Positions 2,272 through 23,303 of a stretch of DNA of 23,303 nucleotides are shown piece after piece. The first letter of the stretch is position 1. Every line of letters begins with the position of its first letter. Origin of the DNA: a virus; the IMG/VR virus record IMGVR_UViG_3300013126_005785, positions 1 to 23,303 of that record. One strand, 5' to 3'. A program made the position numbers and the translations under genes. The notes under the pieces are model-generated. The model had not been told where the DNA came from, ran no database searches, and worked only from the letters and a program-made list of their open reading frames with translations.

Positions 2272-2859
2272 TTAGGGCTTGATCCATCCCATCTGAAATC
2301 CAGAGAACGCAGGACTGATCCCCTGGTTCGCCATAAATGACGCAATCGCAGTTTGCTTTCCACGATAGGGGCTATGGCAGTCGTCAACGACGATCAGGCA
2401 ACCGGAAGGAAGTTGATCCCACACAACCAGAAGCTCCTTTAGACTGTGATCGGCAGCGACATTTGGGAGCCCCCAATCGAAATCTAGTGAGTCGAGATAA
2501 AGGAGAGAAACTTTTGAAATCGTCTTTGTCGTCTGGGTTCGAAGCTTTTCAACAGAGTCGCCAACGATGTATTTTACTCTGTTCGTTTGCTCACGGGCAT
2601 TTTCAACAGCTTTAGGATTGATGTCGATCGAGATTACTTTGGTGCCGTTGACTTCCGCGGCAAGCCAGTCCCAAATGAGAGTGCTTTGTCCGTCTCCTTG
2701 CCAATTGCCGGGAGTCCTCGCGGTTCCAGTTTCTATAATTTGATTGAGCCCGAGTGCCGCAGACTTTTCAACGTGATCGATCATGAACGCAAATGCATCT
2801 TTGCGATAAGAAAGGGCCTTGGCCCAGGGCTGGGAATTAAATTTTTCTTTAATGTCCAT
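2272..2859 (-). CDS. SAM-dependent methyltransferase (class I, Methyltransf_24-like)
   Basis: A 195-aa class I methyltransferase fold. The SAM-binding motif I region is ETGTARTPGNWQGDGQST (about residues 43-60). Motif II acid is in ISIDINPKAVENAR (D79). GDSVEKL follows at about 100, and LLYLDSLDFDW (119-129) and VVDDCHSP (157-164) mark the later strands and a likely active-site or metal-binding D/H cluster. This pattern is seen in small methyltransferases of sugar and glycan clusters. The start overlaps the upstream glycosyltransferase gene by 11 bases and has GGGAGGA five bases ahead, so the two are coupled. Pairing with a GT9 enzyme suggests joint glycan modification; the acceptor cannot be told from sequence. 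Confidence 0.75.
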   Translation of the reverse strand: MDIKEKFNSQPWAKALSYRKDAFAFMIDHVEKSAALGLNQIIETGTARTPGNWQGDGQSTLIWDWLAAEVNGTKVISIDINPKAVENAREQTNRVKYIVGDSVEKLRTQTTKTISKVSLLYLDSLDFDWGLPNVAADHSLKELLVVWDQLPSGCLIVVDDCHSPYRGKQTAIASFMANQGISPAFSGFQMGWIKP

Positions 2860-3889
2860 GACTGTCCTCCCGAAGTTTTCTGAAAAACTGTGCGACTTCG
2901 ATGGGATTAGGAAGAATCTTTTCCATGAGGCCCGGAGGGAGTTCCTCGGCTTTCACTTCAGTTTCTTGAACTGGAGAGTGATTCATGTAGTTCCAAACCC
3001 CATCACGCCCGAAGTTTTTCGTCTTGTATCCGAACTGACCATTGCGCCAGTGGGTTATGTAATCAGGATACTTGCAGCTTGCGACGAAACCTATGAAGGC
3101 ATCTCCCGCGGCTGCGATATGAATTGGGGCTGAATCATTCGAGAAGAGAAAGTGCGAATTTTTCAGAAGCGAAATCAGATCCTTCATCGACATTTGATTT
3201 CTAAGATCGATTGAACCCTCTGGATCTACATCGACAAACCCCACATTCCCGCTGCCGACCTCAAAACCCTCTTTGCCAATGAGAACGGTCTTGAACCCTT
3301 CGCGCTGAAATGCACGAATTTGTTCATTCCAATACTCTTTCGGAAAGGTCTTGGAGGGCCAATGTTTGCCAGCGTGGATGACAATCGCTTGTTTCCCAAA
3401 CTCGAGCACCTGTCCTACAATTGGGTTTTCAAAGGGATGGTTCGGCAGTTTGATCTCTTTGTCGGCGTTAGGAAGCTGACAGCGAAACATGCATATCGAA
3501 GGAAAATCCACGCAGTGGGAAATCATGTGCGAAACAAATTCCCAAAGCAGATGGCTTGGGTCGACGATCGATTGAAAAACCATGTAGTTATCAAAAACTG
3601 GTTTTACTTTTCGGGTATCGAAAACTTCTTTGAAGTGAAGATGAGTGAAGAGGTCGGGTTGACGACTTGCAAGGGAGATTGCGCATTGAGGAAACGCCTT
3701 AAGCGCGTATCGGATGGCGGGTTCTGCACAAACCTGATCTCCAAGACCTCCCCAGGTATTGATTAAAAAGTTTCGTTCGACTTTGCGGTCGAAGGCTTCT
3801 TTGACGTTGAATGAAGGAACCATCCTCGCAGGGAGGACAACTCGCGGTGGTGCTTTCGTTTCCATGCGTATGAGTTGATATTCCGACAC
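2849..3889 (-). CDS. GT9-type (heptosyltransferase-like) glycosyltransferase
   Basis: A 346-aa GT-B glycosyltransferase resembling the ADP-heptose:LPS heptosyltransferase family (GT9). The N-terminal domain carries INTWGGLGDQVCAEPAIRYA at about 43-62, the family's nucleotide-fold glycine loop with the catalytic-type acid D51. The C-terminal domain has VIHAGKHWPSKTFPKEYW (170-187) and SNDSAPIHIAAAGD (250-263), the usual donor-binding motifs. It starts at a GTG at 3889 with only a weak ribosome site; an ATG eight codons later is an alternative. It lies between the tail adhesin and the lysis genes and is coupled to a methyltransferase. It could alter host LPS, giving superinfection exclusion, or decorate the virion. 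It is unusual cargo here. Confidence 0.78.
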   Translation of the reverse strand: MSEYQLIRMETKAPPRVVLPARMVPSFNVKEAFDRKVERNFLINTWGGLGDQVCAEPAIRYALKAFPQCAISLASRQPDLFTHLHFKEVFDTRKVKPVFDNYMVFQSIVDPSHLLWEFVSHMISHCVDFPSICMFRCQLPNADKEIKLPNHPFENPIVGQVLEFGKQAIVIHAGKHWPSKTFPKEYWNEQIRAFQREGFKTVLIGKEGFEVGSGNVGFVDVDPEGSIDLRNQMSMKDLISLLKNSHFLFSNDSAPIHIAAAGDAFIGFVASCKYPDYITHWRNGQFGYKTKNFGRDGVWNYMNHSPVQETEVKAEELPPGLMEKILPNPIEVAQFFRKLREDSHGH

Positions 3890-3939: not shown

Positions 3940-5556
3940 CTAAATATCGTATTCCACCTCAATCCGATCCGCATATGGATGCGTGCCGAGTGAGGTGTCG
4001 CCGATGCGAGGAAATCCAGTGGTCACCACCACGGCATAAGAACTTCCAGGCGTAACTCCGATTTCATTTAGTTCGTACTCTTCACCCTCTTTAAAGAAGA
4101 GGCCATTTCGCACGGGAACTGGCGAGCTGATGTTGTTTGGAAAACCCGCGGCGTTACTGAACATGGTGGTTCCCCACGTCCAGAGACTTCCGTCTGTTGC
4201 TTTTGCGATCAAACCCGCGGCATTATCGACAATCCAATCCCATTTCTTTCCGCCAGCAACCAAAGTTGGAGTTGAACGGAATTCGAATATCTCATTGTGG
4301 ATCCCGATGCCGAGAGCTCCATTTCCGTTTTCACCCCAGGCCCACATGTCGCCATTGTCCTCGATCACCCAATGTCTCATGGAGTTGTTAAACGAGATAA
4401 ATTTGAATTTCTTCCCAGGCATGATGATGACAGGTGTTGACGAGCCCTCGGGGAGTCCATTTCCGCAGGAAGACTGAAAAAATATTCCGTCCCACCCCCA
4501 AGACCACAAGGTTCCGTCTTCAGCGAGCATCTTGCGTGCGCCCGCGGATGGGAGTCCCTGGATTGGATCACCGACGCCCGACATCGGCGCAATTTTTTTA
4601 ATCTTCCCATACGCAGTAATCAACACAGGCGAACTGTAGGCAACATAGTTCACGATGATGAAAGGTGTAGATTCGACAATCGTCCCTTCAGCATTTGCGT
4701 CGAAAAAAGGAGCGCCTGCCCCCCAGACATAGAGATCATTGGATTCCGTAATTGCCCAAATGCCAGCAAATGCTGGAATGATTTCTCGAAACTTGTGTCC
4801 TCCCGCGATTGCAACAGGAGAGCTTACAGCCGCAACGGAAGCCGGATCTAGTCCTGCTCCGAGTTCGCCGCCACCATCTCCAAAGAATGGGATATTTCGT
4901 CCCCATGACCACCAATTGCCATTGATATCCTGGCCAAAGGTAAGGTTTCCGGTGGTGATGGCCTTTTGCCACTTATTTCCACCAATCACCAGCACAGGCG
5001 AGCTCGTCATATCCGGCGTGTTAAAGCCTCCTCCAAGTGCTCCCATGCCGTTGAATCCCCACATATAAAGGTCACCAGTAAGAGTGATTCCCCAAGGGCA
5101 TCTTGCTTCTTTCCATTTCAGGCCGCCGACAACCATCACGGGCGAACTAAATGCCGACGTCGTGGTGCCATTTCCAACCGAGCCCCCTTGGTTTGCTCCC
5201 CAAGTGAAAAGGTCTCCATCGAGCGTAATTCCAGCGGGGTTTGCAATCCCTGCAGCTTGCCTTCGCCATTTTTTTCCACCCGACACAAGCTTCGGAACAG
5301 ACTGGTCAGCAGTATCGTTTGTTCCAGTAAAACCCTGAGTGCCGAAGAAGTTTCCGTTCATGCCCCAGCCATACATATTGTTGTCGAAATCAAGGAAATG
5401 AACGAATCCAGAGCCGTTGGCGAAGTCTCCCATGTTTTCATAGCCCCAAAACTTGAGAAGGCTATGGCGATAAATCTTTCTGGCCCGCACGGACTTTACG
5501 CCCGCGGGAATGACCAGAGTTCCATCCGCACTGAAAACCTTTTTTACCTTAGCCAT
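3940..5556 (-). CDS. RCC1-repeat beta-propeller tail-tip protein (putative adhesin)
   Basis: A 538-aa protein built on RCC1-type repeats. Eight aromatic-x-W-G motifs occur near residues 64, 119, 166, 218, 278, 353, 407 and 461 (YGWGMN, FTWGAN, YMWGFN, WSWGRN, YVWGAG, WSWGWD, WAWGEN, WTWGTT). Between them are SSPV.V.GG.KW turns and LG.G loops, as in RCC1 blades. Residues 1-35 (DGTLVIPAGVKSVRAR) resemble the small beta collars that begin many tail-tip proteins. The last 50 residues (GVTPGSSYAVVV) look like a C-terminal beta domain. There is no signal peptide. It follows the fibre gene by 11 bases with AAAGGAG before the ATG. Position after the baseplate and fibre genes suggests receptor binding; this is inference. 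Confidence 0.75.
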   Translation of the reverse strand: MAKVKKVFSADGTLVIPAGVKSVRARKIYRHSLLKFWGYENMGDFANGSGFVHFLDFDNNMYGWGMNGNFFGTQGFTGTNDTADQSVPKLVSGGKKWRRQAAGIANPAGITLDGDLFTWGANQGGSVGNGTTTSAFSSPVMVVGGLKWKEARCPWGITLTGDLYMWGFNGMGALGGGFNTPDMTSSPVLVIGGNKWQKAITTGNLTFGQDINGNWWSWGRNIPFFGDGGGELGAGLDPASVAAVSSPVAIAGGHKFREIIPAFAGIWAITESNDLYVWGAGAPFFDANAEGTIVESTPFIIVNYVAYSSPVLITAYGKIKKIAPMSGVGDPIQGLPSAGARKMLAEDGTLWSWGWDGIFFQSSCGNGLPEGSSTPVIIMPGKKFKFISFNNSMRHWVIEDNGDMWAWGENGNGALGIGIHNEIFEFRSTPTLVAGGKKWDWIVDNAAGLIAKATDGSLWTWGTTMFSNAAGFPNNISSPVPVRNGLFFKEGEEYELNEIGVTPGSSYAVVVTTGFPRIGDTSLGTHPYADRIEVEYDI

Positions 5557-10758: not shown

Positions 10759-11453
10759 TTTCCACCTCCGAAAAAGTTTCCGATTTTGACTGCAAGACTC
10801 GACCGCACGTTCGGCGCTGGGGTTGGAGATTGATTTCCAAGATCTGCCTTGCTCGGGGCTGTATGCTTAACAGATGGCTGAACCTTTTTGATGGCGACCG
10901 ATTTCGCGCTGACTTTTCTGACCTCTTTGAGTGTTGCGCGAAAGTGGAGCTGCTTTCCGGTTTTTTGATCGCGTGGAAATGAAAGCGACTGAATCGCCAT
11001 GTTCTCGTACTGAGTTAGGCCAGTAACCACAGTGACAAGTCTTCGGTTTTTCCAAATCGAAGTAAGCATGTCGTGGGCAACCTTGGCTGGATCGTCGGCT
11101 TCTGAAAAAAGAGCAGCCCCCGCAAAACCTCCGCCGATCGCTCCGGCAGCGGATCCGAATCCCCCGAGCTGGGAGCCGAGGATGCTTCCCGCGGCCGAGA
11201 CAAGCCCCTGCGCCTGGGCACTGAGATTGAGTGGTGTTGATGAAATAACACCGTCGATTTCAAGAGAGATATTTTTCGGTCGAATGTGGTCGGATACATC
11301 TGGCCCATCCTCCACGGCGTGCTCCGTGATGTCAGATTCATACGTTGGAACTTCGGTGATCGTTGCGTCGACAAGAAACAGGTCGGCCGCGAAGTCCTGG
11401 CTTCGGAATTTCGTTCTAACGGGTTCGCCTGTGAGTAGAGATAGGAGTGCCAT
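10755..11453 (-). CDS. Dit-like distal tail / baseplate ring protein
   Basis: A 232-aa protein whose N-terminal half matches the Dit-like domain: YESDITEHAVEDGPDVSDHI at about residues 38-57, then RPKNISLEIDGVISSTPLN. In this family these regions form the ring at the tube tip. A glycine and alanine rich insert follows (LGGFGSAAGAIGGGFAG, about 95-111), then a second conserved part (TVVTGLTQYENMAIQSLSFPRD, LHFRATLKEVRKV). The ATG overlaps the tape measure stop by one base. The gene order tape measure, Dit-like, plug, hub, spike supports the call. Confidence 0.82.
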   Translation of the reverse strand: MALLSLLTGEPVRTKFRSQDFAADLFLVDATITEVPTYESDITEHAVEDGPDVSDHIRPKNISLEIDGVISSTPLNLSAQAQGLVSAAGSILGSQLGGFGSAAGAIGGGFAGAALFSEADDPAKVAHDMLTSIWKNRRLVTVVTGLTQYENMAIQSLSFPRDQKTGKQLHFRATLKEVRKVSAKSVAIKKVQPSVKHTAPSKADLGNQSPTPAPNVRSSLAVKIGNFFGGGN

Positions 11454-13012
11454 TAGTAAACTGGTGCTCCTTCCCCAAGATAGGAACTATTGGCCTTTCG
11501 GATGAGAGCCGAAAACCCTTCGTCAATTGAGTTTTGAAGTTTAGGAGCTACGGTTGTCGGATCCACATTCGGGCCGACGTTAAAAGTCATGCTCGAGTCC
11601 ACGCGCACGGGCGCTTGCACGTTGGAAGTGGATGTTGTGGGTGACGAAGTTGGAGAAGCGTTCTTTAGAAGAATGTCATAGGCTCCGGTCGTATCGAACT
11701 CGCCGAGAGCATTTCCGAGTTTTCCTCCAGCCCAAGTGATCGCTTTCCCAAGAGCCGCAAATACAGGCGCGAGAAAGTTTCCAACGGCACTTGCCACCTT
11801 CATGATCCAGCCGAAGATGACGGAAAGCGCGCTTGCGACGTCCATCACTGCGGTTTTTATGAGTGAAAATGTACCTAAGATGGCCTTTCCAAGAACTGGA
11901 AAATTCGCGAGGAACTTTCCAAAATAGCTTTCGCCCCCTTGGAAAAACGTGATGATGTCGTCAATCAAAAGCCCAACGGCAACAGCTATCGCGCCGATGG
12001 CGATAGGAATTGCGAGTGCCGCGAGATCCATTGCCACGAATGCCGCGACCGCATTCCATACAGCCAGGGCAACAGAGCCAATTCCATAGAGAAGTTTGCC
12101 CCCCAGGAAGACCGCTGCGATGGTTCCAAGCATCAAGGCGATCTTCTCGATCCCACCAAAGGTGTCGATGAATCCGCCCACAGATTCCACAAGCGCGGTC
12201 ATGGCTCGCCATACGATTTGAACGAACCGGGCCATGCCGTCGAAAACAAACTTGATCTTCTCGGCCAAGCGCACACGGTTTTCAGAAATGAAGTCGTTGA
12301 ACCGCACGGCAAGCGGCTTGATCACTTTGATCAGTCCAATGCCAAGAATGTTTCTTAAACCCTTGAGCGCAAGCGTGCTTTCTTTGATTGTGTCGTTAAA
12401 TTCATTGGCCATCTCGACGTCTACGTCACTGAGAACGGTTCCGTACTTGTCCGCCAGGGCCGCAGCCTTTGTGATCTCAGCAGAACCTTTATTCAGAAAG
12501 GGAATCATGTCGCGTCCAGCGCGGCCGAAGAGTTCCATCGCCAGAGCTGATTTTTCAACTCCGTCGGGCATCGCTGCGAAACGATCCGCTATTGCTGTAA
12601 GCGCCTGAGTAGTGGTGGGAAGCTGTCCACCGAAGACGCGCGCATCAAGGCCCACCTTGCGAAGTGCTTTTGCGGATTCAGCTGATCCATCCCTTGCCGA
12701 AACAAGTTGGCGAGAGAGAACACCGAGACTTTGCTGAAGAGAATCGAGAGAAATGTCGCCTAGATATGCGGCGGTTTGAAGACGCTGGAGAGCTCCAACG
12801 CTGATGCCGAGTTTTTGAGCTGCTTTGCTGGCTTCTTCGCCAGCGTCAGCGGTGAACTTTGCAAAGCCGAAAAGAGTTGCTGAGGCCGCGGTGACGGAAA
12901 TCCCAATAGTCTTCAGGGTTCCCTTTAGACCGTCGAGTTTTTCTTCGACCTTCTTGAGCTTGGTATCGTCAAAGTCGAGTCCCAGCTTTGCATAAAGTTC
13001 TCGGACAATCAT
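11453..13012 (-). CDS. Tape measure protein (short)
   Basis: A 519-aa tail length protein. Residues 1-60 are polar and coiled-coil-like (FDDTKLKKVEEKLDGLKGTL). Residues 80-230 are helical with the phage_tail pattern (QKLGISVGALQRLQTAAYLG, FAAMPDGVEKSALAMELFGRAG). Residues about 295-365 are strongly hydrophobic, as expected for the segment that enters the membrane. The C-terminus is S/T rich and then ordered (VGPNVDPTTVAPKLQNSI). At roughly 1.5 angstroms per residue it implies a tail of the order of 75-80 nm, an estimate only. The ATG overlaps the stop of the frameshifted chaperone frame (ATGA), a classic arrangement. Confidence 0.9.
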   Translation of the reverse strand: MIVRELYAKLGLDFDDTKLKKVEEKLDGLKGTLKTIGISVTAASATLFGFAKFTADAGEEASKAAQKLGISVGALQRLQTAAYLGDISLDSLQQSLGVLSRQLVSARDGSAESAKALRKVGLDARVFGGQLPTTTQALTAIADRFAAMPDGVEKSALAMELFGRAGRDMIPFLNKGSAEITKAAALADKYGTVLSDVDVEMANEFNDTIKESTLALKGLRNILGIGLIKVIKPLAVRFNDFISENRVRLAEKIKFVFDGMARFVQIVWRAMTALVESVGGFIDTFGGIEKIALMLGTIAAVFLGGKLLYGIGSVALAVWNAVAAFVAMDLAALAIPIAIGAIAVAVGLLIDDIITFFQGGESYFGKFLANFPVLGKAILGTFSLIKTAVMDVASALSVIFGWIMKVASAVGNFLAPVFAALGKAITWAGGKLGNALGEFDTTGAYDILLKNASPTSSPTTSTSNVQAPVRVDSSMTFNVGPNVDPTTVAPKLQNSIDEGFSALIRKANSSYLGEGAPVY

Positions 13013-13248
13013 TTTCGCCCCTTGGCAGCTCTTTCCTCCGCCTTTCGTTTCGCTTCCTGGTCGAGATCCAGTGCCTCATTCGCATCCAAGAGATCGAGAA
13101 CCGACCAGTGCTCTTCAACCTCCTGAAGCGTCGCCATCCCTGAGATAATCACCCTCCATACGGGCCAGATCAGGTGCTCGGGGACTCTGCTGCTTCCGAC
13201 TTCGCCCCCGCGAGGCTTTGCAGCCCTTGCAGCCCCGCGAGATCGCCT
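13009..13248 (-). CDS. Frameshifted C-terminal extension of tail assembly chaperone (-1 frame)
   Basis: An open stretch of 79 codons in the -1 frame of the upstream chaperone gene, ending in TGA at 13009-13011 inside the tape measure start. After a slip at the heptamer 13248-13254 it reads an arginine/glycine-rich linker (RRSRGAARAAKPRGG), then EHLIWPVWRVIISG, EHWSVLDLLDANEALDL and a charged tail (AKRKAEERAAKGRK). The WS..DLLDANEALD segment is typical of small tail proteins encoded between chaperone and tape measure. Fused to residues 1-133 it gives a 212-aa product. No ribosome site supports an independent start. The counterpart in lambda is gpGT. The call is strong on sequence grounds; slippage itself is not shown. 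Confidence 0.82.
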   Translation of the reverse strand, partial: RRSRGAARAAKPRGGEVGSSRVPEHLIWPVWRVIISGMATLQEVEEHWSVLDLLDANEALDLDQEAKRKAEERAAKGRK

Positions 13249-13646
13249 AAAAAATCGCTATATTGAAACGCCACAGCCTTTCCGACGACTTTGAACATGT
13301 GGCCGATGCGCCCTTGGAAATGGACGTCGAAATACTCAGCGCCGACGCCGCGGAGCTTTCCGCTTTTCGCCTCGATCACCTGGACGGAATCCAGAATGTC
13401 TTTGATGAGAGTTTCGACTTCGTTCTCGTCGATTCGGGCACTCAAAGCTGAAATGGCATGGCCTAAAACAGCGTTTGCGGCCGCATCGTCGTTTTCTTTG
13501 ATTGCTTTTCCGGCACTCAAGAATTTTGCAATGGGATCACCGGCAAACTTCACGAGGCGCGCAAAAATCTTTGTCCCGCGCGTGGCCGAGAAGTGTTTGA
13601 CCTTGTAGTTCTCTCCGTCGATTTCAAATTGCTCTTCAAACCGCAT
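13170..13646 (-). CDS. Tail assembly chaperone (zero-frame product)
   Basis: A 158-aa protein directly before the tape measure region and after the tube gene, the position of tail assembly chaperones (lambda gpG, P2 gpE). The N-terminus (EEQFEIDGENYKVKHFSATR) is a beta strand pair leading into a helical body (KIFARLVKFAGDPIAKFL, NAVLGHAISALSARID, VETLIKDILDSVQVIEAK). The last 25 codons, after the slippery site at codons 131-133, are low-complexity (LAGLQGLQSLAGAKSEAAES) and look like the dispensable tail made when no shift occurs. Such proteins coat the tape measure before tube polymerisation. AGGTAAT-type spacing separates it from the tube gene stop. Role inferred from synteny and frameshift structure. 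Confidence 0.82.
   Translation of the reverse strand: MRFEEQFEIDGENYKVKHFSATRGTKIFARLVKFAGDPIAKFLSAGKAIKENDDAAANAVLGHAISALSARIDENEVETLIKDILDSVQVIEAKSGKLRGVGAEYFDVHFQGRIGHMFKVVGKAVAFQYSDFLGDLAGLQGLQSLAGAKSEAAESPST
13248..13254 (-). promoter_or_regulatory. -1 programmed ribosomal frameshift slippery site T-TTT-TTA
   Basis: In the chaperone gene the zero frame reads GAT TTT TTA at codons 131-133, which is the canonical X XXY YYZ heptamer with six T then A. Just downstream lie two tandem copies of GGGCTGCAA. The second can fold as GGCT-GCAA-AGCC with a GNRA loop about 30 bases after the heptamer. Flanking CTCGCGGGG direct repeats bracket the region. These could act as a pausing structure. Confidence 0.8.
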
Positions 13647-14062
13647 TAATTACCTCCCAAGAAGAGAGCGAGGTTGTCGGTTTCAAGCGTCCACTCGACC
13701 TCTCGGACTTCGTTTTCGAAGCCAAGAACCGGAAGCTTTTTGATGTAAGCCTGCTCGCACGCGATAAGCGCGCGACCACTTAAATCTTTGATGAGCACTG
13801 GAACGAGCCCACCGTTGTTGAGCTCATCGGCTGCAGCAAACCCGGAAAGCACGTCGTTCGAATCGCTGCTCGAGAGGAGTGTGAATTTCACCGTTCCAGA
13901 TTTGTTGTTCGATTTCGATCGGGTTCCTTCGCCGTCGATTCCGACGGTCATGGCGTAGGCATCCTCAGATCGCTCGGCCTCGATAAATGTTCCGGGAGCA
14001 AAACCCGCTAGGGGCCTTCCTCCCACTGTTGCTACGACTTGGCTTGGATCGTATGTTTTCAT
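13646..14062 (-). CDS. Tail tube protein (DUF3277 family)
   Basis: A 138-aa tube subunit. It shows the DUF3277 pattern from the first residues: KTYDPSQVVATVGGRPLAGF, GTFIEAERSEDAYAMTVGID, GEGTRSKSNNKSGTVKFTLL, SSSDSNDVLSGF, PVLIKDLSGRALIA and a C-terminal VREVEWTLETDNL strand. The family forms the inner tube of contractile tails with DUF3383 sheaths. The ATG is preceded by CTAGGAGGAA. It directly follows the sheath gene by 17 bases and touches the chaperone gene start (one base shared). Confidence 0.92.
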   Translation of the reverse strand: MKTYDPSQVVATVGGRPLAGFAPGTFIEAERSEDAYAMTVGIDGEGTRSKSNNKSGTVKFTLLSSSDSNDVLSGFAAADELNNGGLVPVLIKDLSGRALIACEQAYIKKLPVLGFENEVREVEWTLETDNLALFLGGN

Positions 14063-14079: not shown

Positions 14080-15372
14080 TTAAACTGAAACAAATCCCTT
14101 GACCGTGACTTCGCCGATCGCGCCAGCGAGCCGGAATTCAAATTCAATGTCTGGGAAAATTCGGTCTTGACGATCTTGCGGATCCACATCGGCAACCTTC
14201 TGCGAGGTGACGACGTAGCCGTCCTCCCGCGAAATTCCTCCAACGCGAATTCCTTCTTCGATTTTGGCTCTGACGATCGCCTCAAGAGAGGTCACGCCGC
14301 CGTCGGTGTAAGGCACCTTTTCCACGGCAACGAGAAGGCCGTAGATGCCTTCTTGAACGCGCGCGGTGAACCAGTCGAGAAAGCGAGTGACGTCGATCCA
14401 CTGGCCACCAACCATTTTTCCTTTTTGAACGATCCCCACGCCCCCCACGGTTGTGTAGTGATTGACGTTCTTGGAATCGAGATTGGCTTGCTCAGTTGCC
14501 GAAAGCTTGTCGGCCGTGATTCCCGAAAGATTGGCAAAGCGCCACTGCTCGGAGCCGGGATCGGTCGGAAGTTTCCGGCCGGACCATGCCGCATCGGGGC
14601 CGCTTTCTTCATCTCCGCTCCAAAGTAGAGCGGTTCGTTTGTAGGATTTTCCTTTGAGCGCGCTGCCCAGATCGGTAATGCTCGAGGTTTTGATCGAAGA
14701 TTCTTCAGTCGCCGCGATGAAAATCTTCCGCACCGCCTCGATGAAGGAAGCCGCCTGAAGAACATCGAATTCCTCACGCGAGGTAAGAATCAAGCAGTAC
14801 CAGTCGTCGTTTACTTGCTGAATTGCCTGAATATCTTCGATCACGCCGTGATTCGAGGTCGTGTGCACGATGGTCAGATTTACAGTCGCCGATATCTGAT
14901 TGGCTTCGCCCGCATTATCTGCGGTGAGTATGAGGGTGGTCGTTCCTGACGCAGTCATCTTGCAGTCGGTATCCGCATTGATGAGAGCGAGAAGGCCCGC
15001 GACGATTTCTCCTGCGGTGGCATCCGCATCGGAGGTGAACTCGTAGTCCACGCCATTGATGGTGACTCGATAAAGCGCAGTATTTTGGGCCGTGGGAGTC
15101 AGTGTTTCTACTTGAGCAACCTGGGCTCCGCGCTTTCCAATCATGATCTGCTTGGGCTTTTTTTCTTGCGAGAAAAGGCGCTGCGCCCAGATGTATTCCT
15201 CGTCCGTGGTTTCAAAGTCTTCCGCCACGCCTGGGAGATTGGTGTACGTTCGAATGATGTCGGGGCCGAAATCAGCATTCGGGCCAAGCACCAGTGGGGT
15301 TCCAAAACCCGCGCGGGTGACGGATTTGCTGCCCAAGGTGATCTCGACGTTTACAATTTGATCTAAGCTCAT
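14080..15372 (-). CDS. Contractile tail sheath protein (DUF3383 family)
   Basis: A 430-aa sheath subunit, which makes this a contractile-tailed phage. The N-terminus (IVNVEITLGSKSVTRAGFGT, PLVLGPN), the FETTDEEYIWAQRLFSQEKK segment at about 53-72, PKQIMIGKRG, and the C-terminal half (YTTVGGVGIVQKGKMVGGQW, WIDVTRFLDWFTARVQEGIY, LVAVEKVPYTDGGVTSLEA) follow the DUF3383 pattern. Residues about 85-170 (VTINGVDYEFTSDADATAGE, ILTADNAGEANQIS) form an inserted beta domain, common in this family and probably surface exposed. AAGGAGGAAACT precedes the ATG. It is followed at once by the tube gene. Confidence 0.93.
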   Translation of the reverse strand: MSLDQIVNVEITLGSKSVTRAGFGTPLVLGPNADFGPDIIRTYTNLPGVAEDFETTDEEYIWAQRLFSQEKKPKQIMIGKRGAQVAQVETLTPTAQNTALYRVTINGVDYEFTSDADATAGEIVAGLLALINADTDCKMTASGTTTLILTADNAGEANQISATVNLTIVHTTSNHGVIEDIQAIQQVNDDWYCLILTSREEFDVLQAASFIEAVRKIFIAATEESSIKTSSITDLGSALKGKSYKRTALLWSGDEESGPDAAWSGRKLPTDPGSEQWRFANLSGITADKLSATEQANLDSKNVNHYTTVGGVGIVQKGKMVGGQWIDVTRFLDWFTARVQEGIYGLLVAVEKVPYTDGGVTSLEAIVRAKIEEGIRVGGISREDGYVVTSQKVADVDPQDRQDRIFPDIEFEFRLAGAIGEVTVKGFVSV

Positions 15373-22940: not shown

Positions 22941-23303
22941 ATGATGCCGAAGAGCGACAAATCTACAAAACCGGAGAGACGACAAAGGGCCAACCATTGC
23001 GCGGATCATGCGAGAGATTCAATCGCTTCTGAGCATCCCGATTATCGAGCATTGTTACCAAGACTCCGACGGGTGGAAGGTCAAATTTCTGGAATTCAGA
23101 GAATGATTTCTGATGGGAGATACTGCGTCGATATCCTCATTCAGTTTCAGGCTGTTGCTTCAGCTCTGCGTGCAATCGAAAGTTCTATTTTTGAAACGCA
23201 TCTCAAAGGATGCGTCACAGATGCGATGGCATCAAAAAATTCAGCGGAAATGGAAAAGAAGACGCAAGAGCTGATGAGCCTGATTTTCAAAAGATTGGAG
23301 TAA
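22941..23303 (+). CDS. csoR: CsoR-family metal-sensing transcriptional repressor
   Basis: A 120-aa all-helical repressor of the CsoR/RcnR (DUF156) family. The core is YRALLPRLRRVEGQISGIQR, MISDGRYCVDILIQFQAVAS and FETHLKGCVTDAM. C62, H87 and C91 have the spacing of the Cu(I) ligands of CsoR (C-x24-H-x3-C), with Y61 next to C62; this favours copper over the nickel, formaldehyde or persulfide branches. The N-terminal 33 residues extend beyond the usual core and include NHCADHARD with extra H and C residues. A CsoR-type operator overlaps its promoter. AAGGA is upstream of paired ATG codons at 22941 and 22944. It is the only plus-strand gene, and no copper ATPase is in view, so its target operon must lie to the right or elsewhere. 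Confidence 0.9.
   Translation: MMPKSDKSTKPERRQRANHCADHARDSIASEHPDYRALLPRLRRVEGQISGIQRMISDGRYCVDILIQFQAVASALRAIESSIFETHLKGCVTDAMASKNSAEMEKKTQELMSLIFKRLE

Follow-up and report, generated by a model that had tools for sequence, protein, structure and literature searches.

The tail assembly chaperone gene of this phage very probably contains a programmed −1 ribosomal frameshift. The proposal rests on comparison among relatives: the slip site, its phase and the open −1 frame are conserved, and the extension encoded in that frame is under purifying selection. The arrangement resembles that of the lambda G/GT genes, in which a short chaperone and a longer frameshift fusion are made from one start.

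Organization of the structural gene region

In the window, by which we mean the entire 23,303-base viral record analyzed here, the structural genes are encoded on the minus strand, as are all genes of the frameshift locus, a point that the preliminary description did not state. In their reading direction the structural genes run as follows: portal, head genes, sheath, tube-position protein, chaperone, tape measure and baseplate genes. The phage of this record is contractile-tailed. The genes around the frameshift are as follows.

14080-15372, minus strand: tail sheath (phrog_205 tail sheath, E 2e-105; PF11863 DUF3383)
13646-14062, minus strand: structural protein at the tube position, adjoining the chaperone gene on its upstream side (PF11681 KPP10_Orf10, E 6e-9; phrog_280)
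13170-13646, minus strand: 0-frame product, 158-residue tail assembly chaperone (open reading frame; PF21822 Phage_TAC_15; phrog_1613)
11453-13012, minus strand: tape measure protein (phrog_8125 tail length tape measure, E 1e-40)

The 158-residue product matched the Pfam family Phage_TAC_15 (PF21822) with 80.5 bits against a curated cut-off of 22 (E 2e-22), and phrog_1613, tail assembly chaperone, with an E value of 3e-19. Both the profile score above the cut-off and the position of the gene between the sheath and tube genes and the tape measure gene place it in Phage_TAC_15.

Three other regions of the window were recorded. A gene for a CsoR-type metal-sensitive transcriptional repressor (PF02583, E 3e-26) occupies positions 22941-23303 on the plus strand and adjoins the portal gene; its direction, opposite to that of the structural genes, suggests either that a prophage ends here or that the gene was acquired from a host. 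A 538-residue RCC1-repeat protein (PF00415, RCC1-like domain) is encoded at 3940-5556 on the minus strand, at the place usually taken by the tail fiber gene. Among the distal genes past the tail module, a family 9 glycosyltransferase (PF01075) is followed by a methyltransferase (PF13578) at 2272-3889 on the minus strand, a pair possibly concerned with surface sugar modification.

The slip site and the predicted fusion product

Codons 131-133 of the chaperone gene read GAT TTT TTA, which puts the heptamer T_TTT_TTA in the ribosomal slip phase (X_XXY_YYZ). The corresponding features are listed below.

13248-13254, minus strand: slippery heptamer T_TTT_TTA (codons GAT TTT TTA), phase 2, read from the sequence and conserved in relatives
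13009-13248, minus strand: −1 frame extension, an open frame of 79 codons with the TGA at 13011-13009
13009-13646, minus strand: predicted frameshift fusion of 212 residues, the 0-frame reading frame plus the −1 extension

The heptamer (13254-13248) begins at offset 392 in the reading frame 13646-13170 and is the sole canonical heptamer between the start of the chaperone frame and the start of the tape measure gene. The TGA that ends the −1 frame shares bases with the tape measure ATG (13012-13010), the two together reading ATGA. Within the extension, a conserved module of 58 residues, PEHLIWPVWRVII..EHWSVLDLLDANEALD, spans approximately positions 13185-13012 on the minus strand. The window thus shows the two local features of the lambda G/GT type, a phased canonical heptamer near the end of the 0-frame reading frame and a −1 extension running as far as the tape measure gene. 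Our reading of the locus agrees with the preliminary description in the frame of the heptamer, the 79 open codons, the stop inside the tape measure ATG, the length of the 212-residue fusion and the gap of about 158 bases between the annotated reading frames; its labels "canonical" and "tail chaperone" are borne out by the phased heptamer and by the PF21822 and phrog_1613 matches.

The slip heptamer is not due to chance. In the other structural genes of the window TTA accounts for 1.8% of 388 leucine codons, and by the codon usage of those genes the probability of finding GAT TTT TTA, given Asp-Phe-Leu, is approximately 0.004. No other slip-phase T6 heptamer was found in the 14 kb of the window's structural genes. 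A Mu-like −2 shift at GCG GGG GCG was also considered and was rejected, as the −2 frame lacks the conserved module and meets an early stop.

Conservation in near relatives

Chaperone relatives at 31-93% identity were found at six loci (L002 to L007), all of which carry a T6 heptamer in slip phase together with a −1 frame that is open to the tape measure gene, so that the loss of both from related phages, named beforehand as grounds for abandoning the proposal, was not observed in the closest loci. L002 to L005 have T_TTT_TTA at an offset identical to that in the window, L006 has T_TTT_TTT within a run of eight T, and L007 has T_TTT_TTC. The chaperones of the window and of L002 to L006 differ in length by at most 3 residues, which means that any insertion or deletion in the overlap has a length divisible by three.

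Among the near relatives, most changes in the extension are synonymous when it is read in the −1 frame, with pN/pS of 0.05-0.24, whereas either of the other registers gives values exceeding 1; these figures refer to the region from the 0-frame stop to the tape measure gene, the overlap's one indel-free comparison having too few changes. This pattern shows purifying selection on the extension as a −1-frame product. A search of an annotated phage collection with the 58-residue module alone gave no match, nor did a DNA search with the whole locus; close relatives are therefore known only from IMG/VR and from one Desulfosarcina genome. The latter (L093) is Desulfosarcina widdelii NZ_AP021875.1, a cultured sulfate reducer in which a related chaperone is present as a prophage-like copy, and a virus record similar to it (L007/L043) has the same arrangement with T_TTT_TTC.

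Distant relatives and the frequency of the heptamer

A profile of the −1-frame module detected relatives of the −1-frame peptide at no fewer than 80 IMG/VR loci, and every one of the 78 loci long enough to read has an upstream reading frame of chaperone length, with the module in its −1 frame. A slip-phase canonical X_XXY_YYZ heptamer was present in the overlap at 57 of 65 non-redundant loci, compared with 11 and 7 in the control phases. Because the protein motif alone could favor runs of T, loci were picked by an amino-acid motif only (Asp, Asn, Ser or Gly, then Phe, then Phe or Leu; xF[F/L]), and the codon usage of each gene served as the control. T_TTT_TTN was found at 45 of the 46 loci chosen in this way, where 9.1 were expected and the maximum in 200,000 simulations was 20; the remaining locus has A_AAT_TTC, which is also canonical. 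The check on heptamer conservation in related genomes that the preliminary description proposed was thus passed. Loci without the motif often carry C_CCT_TTN, A_AAT_TTT or G_GGA_AAC in phase instead. No canonical heptamer occurs in the overlap at 8 of the 65 loci; the −1 frame is open in all eight, most of them have a T-rich stretch at the position of the heptamer, and L018, L021, L027 and L081, which are without a canonical heptamer, have GAT or GAC GTT TTT at the slip position. Site and frame are therefore both retained in divergent relatives, which is a further mark of the lambda G/GT type. When viral sequences were scanned again, this time with an alignment of the chaperones, no new loci emerged.

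These comparisons bear on two readings in which the ribosome does not slip. The first is transcriptional slippage, in which RNA polymerase would insert or omit a U when it transcribes the T run, so that a mixed mRNA results. The site in the window is indeed a run of six T, and that in L006 a run of eight, but six T is short for polymerase slippage, and the ribosomal slip phase, which is kept, would not be needed for it. Since relatives use C_CCT_TTN, A_AAT_TTN and G_GGA_AAC in slip phase, non-homopolymer heptamers that replace the T run, we regard this reading as extremely improbable. The second, that a sequencing error or a true frameshift mutation has split one ordinary gene, would explain why two reading frames in different registers together make one protein, but its probability is negligible, given that the same split is found at 78 loci from many different samples, that both frames are open and that near relatives have only indels of whole-codon length in the overlap.

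A possible start codon within the extension

The small protein could instead come from a separate gene with a start codon of its own, in which case the heptamer would be incidental. The window has in-frame candidates for such a start: the sequence GGAGG (13157-13153) abuts a GTG (13152) and lies 15 nt before an ATG (13137). Both spacings are poor, and the statement in the preliminary description that the −1 frame has no good ribosome site of its own is a fair one. In the named relatives (see Discussion), moreover, the annotation gives this region a small hypothetical gene of its own. Against this reading, the ATG in the window is inside the conserved module, after W..WR, and in most distant relatives Ile or Val stands in its place; 57 of 65 loci lack any start codon that a Shine-Dalgarno-like motif precedes by 3-13 nt. 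An independent start would also leave unexplained both the presence of T_TTT_TTN at 45 of 46 loci and the constant −1 register. With the ATG inside the module and 57 of 65 loci lacking a usable start, the extension is best read as a frameshift product. That the small protein is made solely from its own start, the other finding that would have counted against the original proposal, is accordingly very unlikely.

A candidate hairpin downstream of the heptamer

Frameshifting at the heptamer might be assisted by RNA structure, for which there is one candidate.

13207-13241, minus strand: candidate stimulatory hairpin with arms 13241-13231 and 13217-13207 (pairing in 6 sequences)

The hairpin has up to 11 bp and starts 6 nt past the heptamer. 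An alignment of six near sequences has 92% of its cells paired, and there are two compensatory pairs, both in L006, the most distant of the six; 18 of 500 shuffles were as good. Its energy was compared with that of shuffled sequence and was no more stable (z −0.15). Structure after the slip site was slightly above background over 54 loci (mean z −1.0). These results give modest support to the hairpin as a frameshift stimulator, a role that we consider plausible. To our knowledge, a downstream RNA stimulator is not strictly required for phage tail frameshifts.

Discussion

The programmed −1 frameshift proposed here would operate as follows, where slipping itself, its rate, the part played by the hairpin and the functions of the proteins are what we infer from the conserved locus and from known systems. 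Most ribosomes would stop at 13170 and release the 158-residue chaperone. At T_TTT_TTA a minority would shift by −1, their two tRNAs moving from UUU and UUA to pair with UUU and UUU. The hairpin 6 nt downstream would probably assist this step, and these ribosomes would go on to complete the 212-residue fusion. By analogy with lambda gpG and gpGT, the 158-residue product may be regarded as TAC-N, the gpG counterpart, and the fusion as TAC-NC, the gpGT counterpart. On the same analogy, the shared N-terminal part would bind the tape measure protein in many copies, a few copies of the fusion would recruit the tail tube protein, and both proteins would leave before the tail is completed.

Lambda uses G_GGA_AAG as its slip site, unlike the T_TTT_TTA of the window, and has a flexible tail, whereas the tail of the window phage is contractile. 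The two systems are alike in that the gene lies between the major tail protein and tape measure genes, the −1 slip is near its 3′ end, a short major and a long minor product are predicted, and the tape measure gene marks the end of the C-terminal extension. The search of the extension against Pfam matched no tail T family. The lambda gpG/gpGT frameshift is described as widely conserved in the tail assembly genes of double-stranded DNA phages, as the work is cited in PMC5009743 (Xu, Hendrix and Duda 2004). The HIV-1 gag-pol slip site, U_UUU_UUA (PMC5009743), is identical to the heptamer of the window, and the direction of the shift is also −1; it differs in that eukaryotic ribosomes are involved and in that the gene and its function are unrelated.

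A 2025 paper makes the case that the tail assembly chaperones of Vandenendeviridae and Andersonviridae, Pseudomonas phage Adele among them, have a conserved −1 frameshift, pointing to the open frame together with a GTTTTT motif (PMC12846349). Like the window, the phages vB_PseuGesM_254 and Bitten, which were matched by sequence similarity, carry PF21822, and in both a −1 frame without stops leads from GTTTTT into a small gene whose annotation is hypothetical; their protein identity with the window is about 26-30%. The Vandenendeviridae motif has the context GTT TTT, whereas the window and most of its relatives have a full canonical T_TTT_TTN; the GTT TTT of L018, L021, L027 and L081 resembles that Vandenendeviridae motif (PMC12846349). 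Programmed −1 frameshifting of the lambda G/GT type is textbook knowledge for phages and has already been described for this kind of chaperone. As the arrangement has long been known from lambda and many relatives, the finding is real but ordinary, and it changes no principle.

What it adds concerns the extension. The Pfam family DUF6889 (PF21829) matched 12 of 26 relatives at E ≤ 0.1 (best 1.4e-6), with no match to the window's own sequence, and PHROGs 4364, 3976 and 4625, all of "unknown function", match the −1-frame module or its relatives; no solved structure matching the module was found. DUF6889 and these three PHROGs are probably the frameshift-encoded halves of PF21822-type tail chaperones. 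We think it likely that throughout a widespread PF21822-type lineage DUF6889/PHROG 4364 is a C-terminal chaperone half made by frameshifting only, not a set of separate genes, and that the slip function is kept while its letters change (T_TTT_TTN, A_AAT_TTN, C_CCT_TTN, G_GGA_AAC and the weaker GTTTTT). The gene call is thereby corrected here and in relatives, in which the extension has been missed or called a separate hypothetical gene, and several families of "unknown function" gain a likely identity, a modest advance in annotation. The loci assembled here also form a large comparative set on phage slip sites, in which the letters vary and the function appears to be kept.
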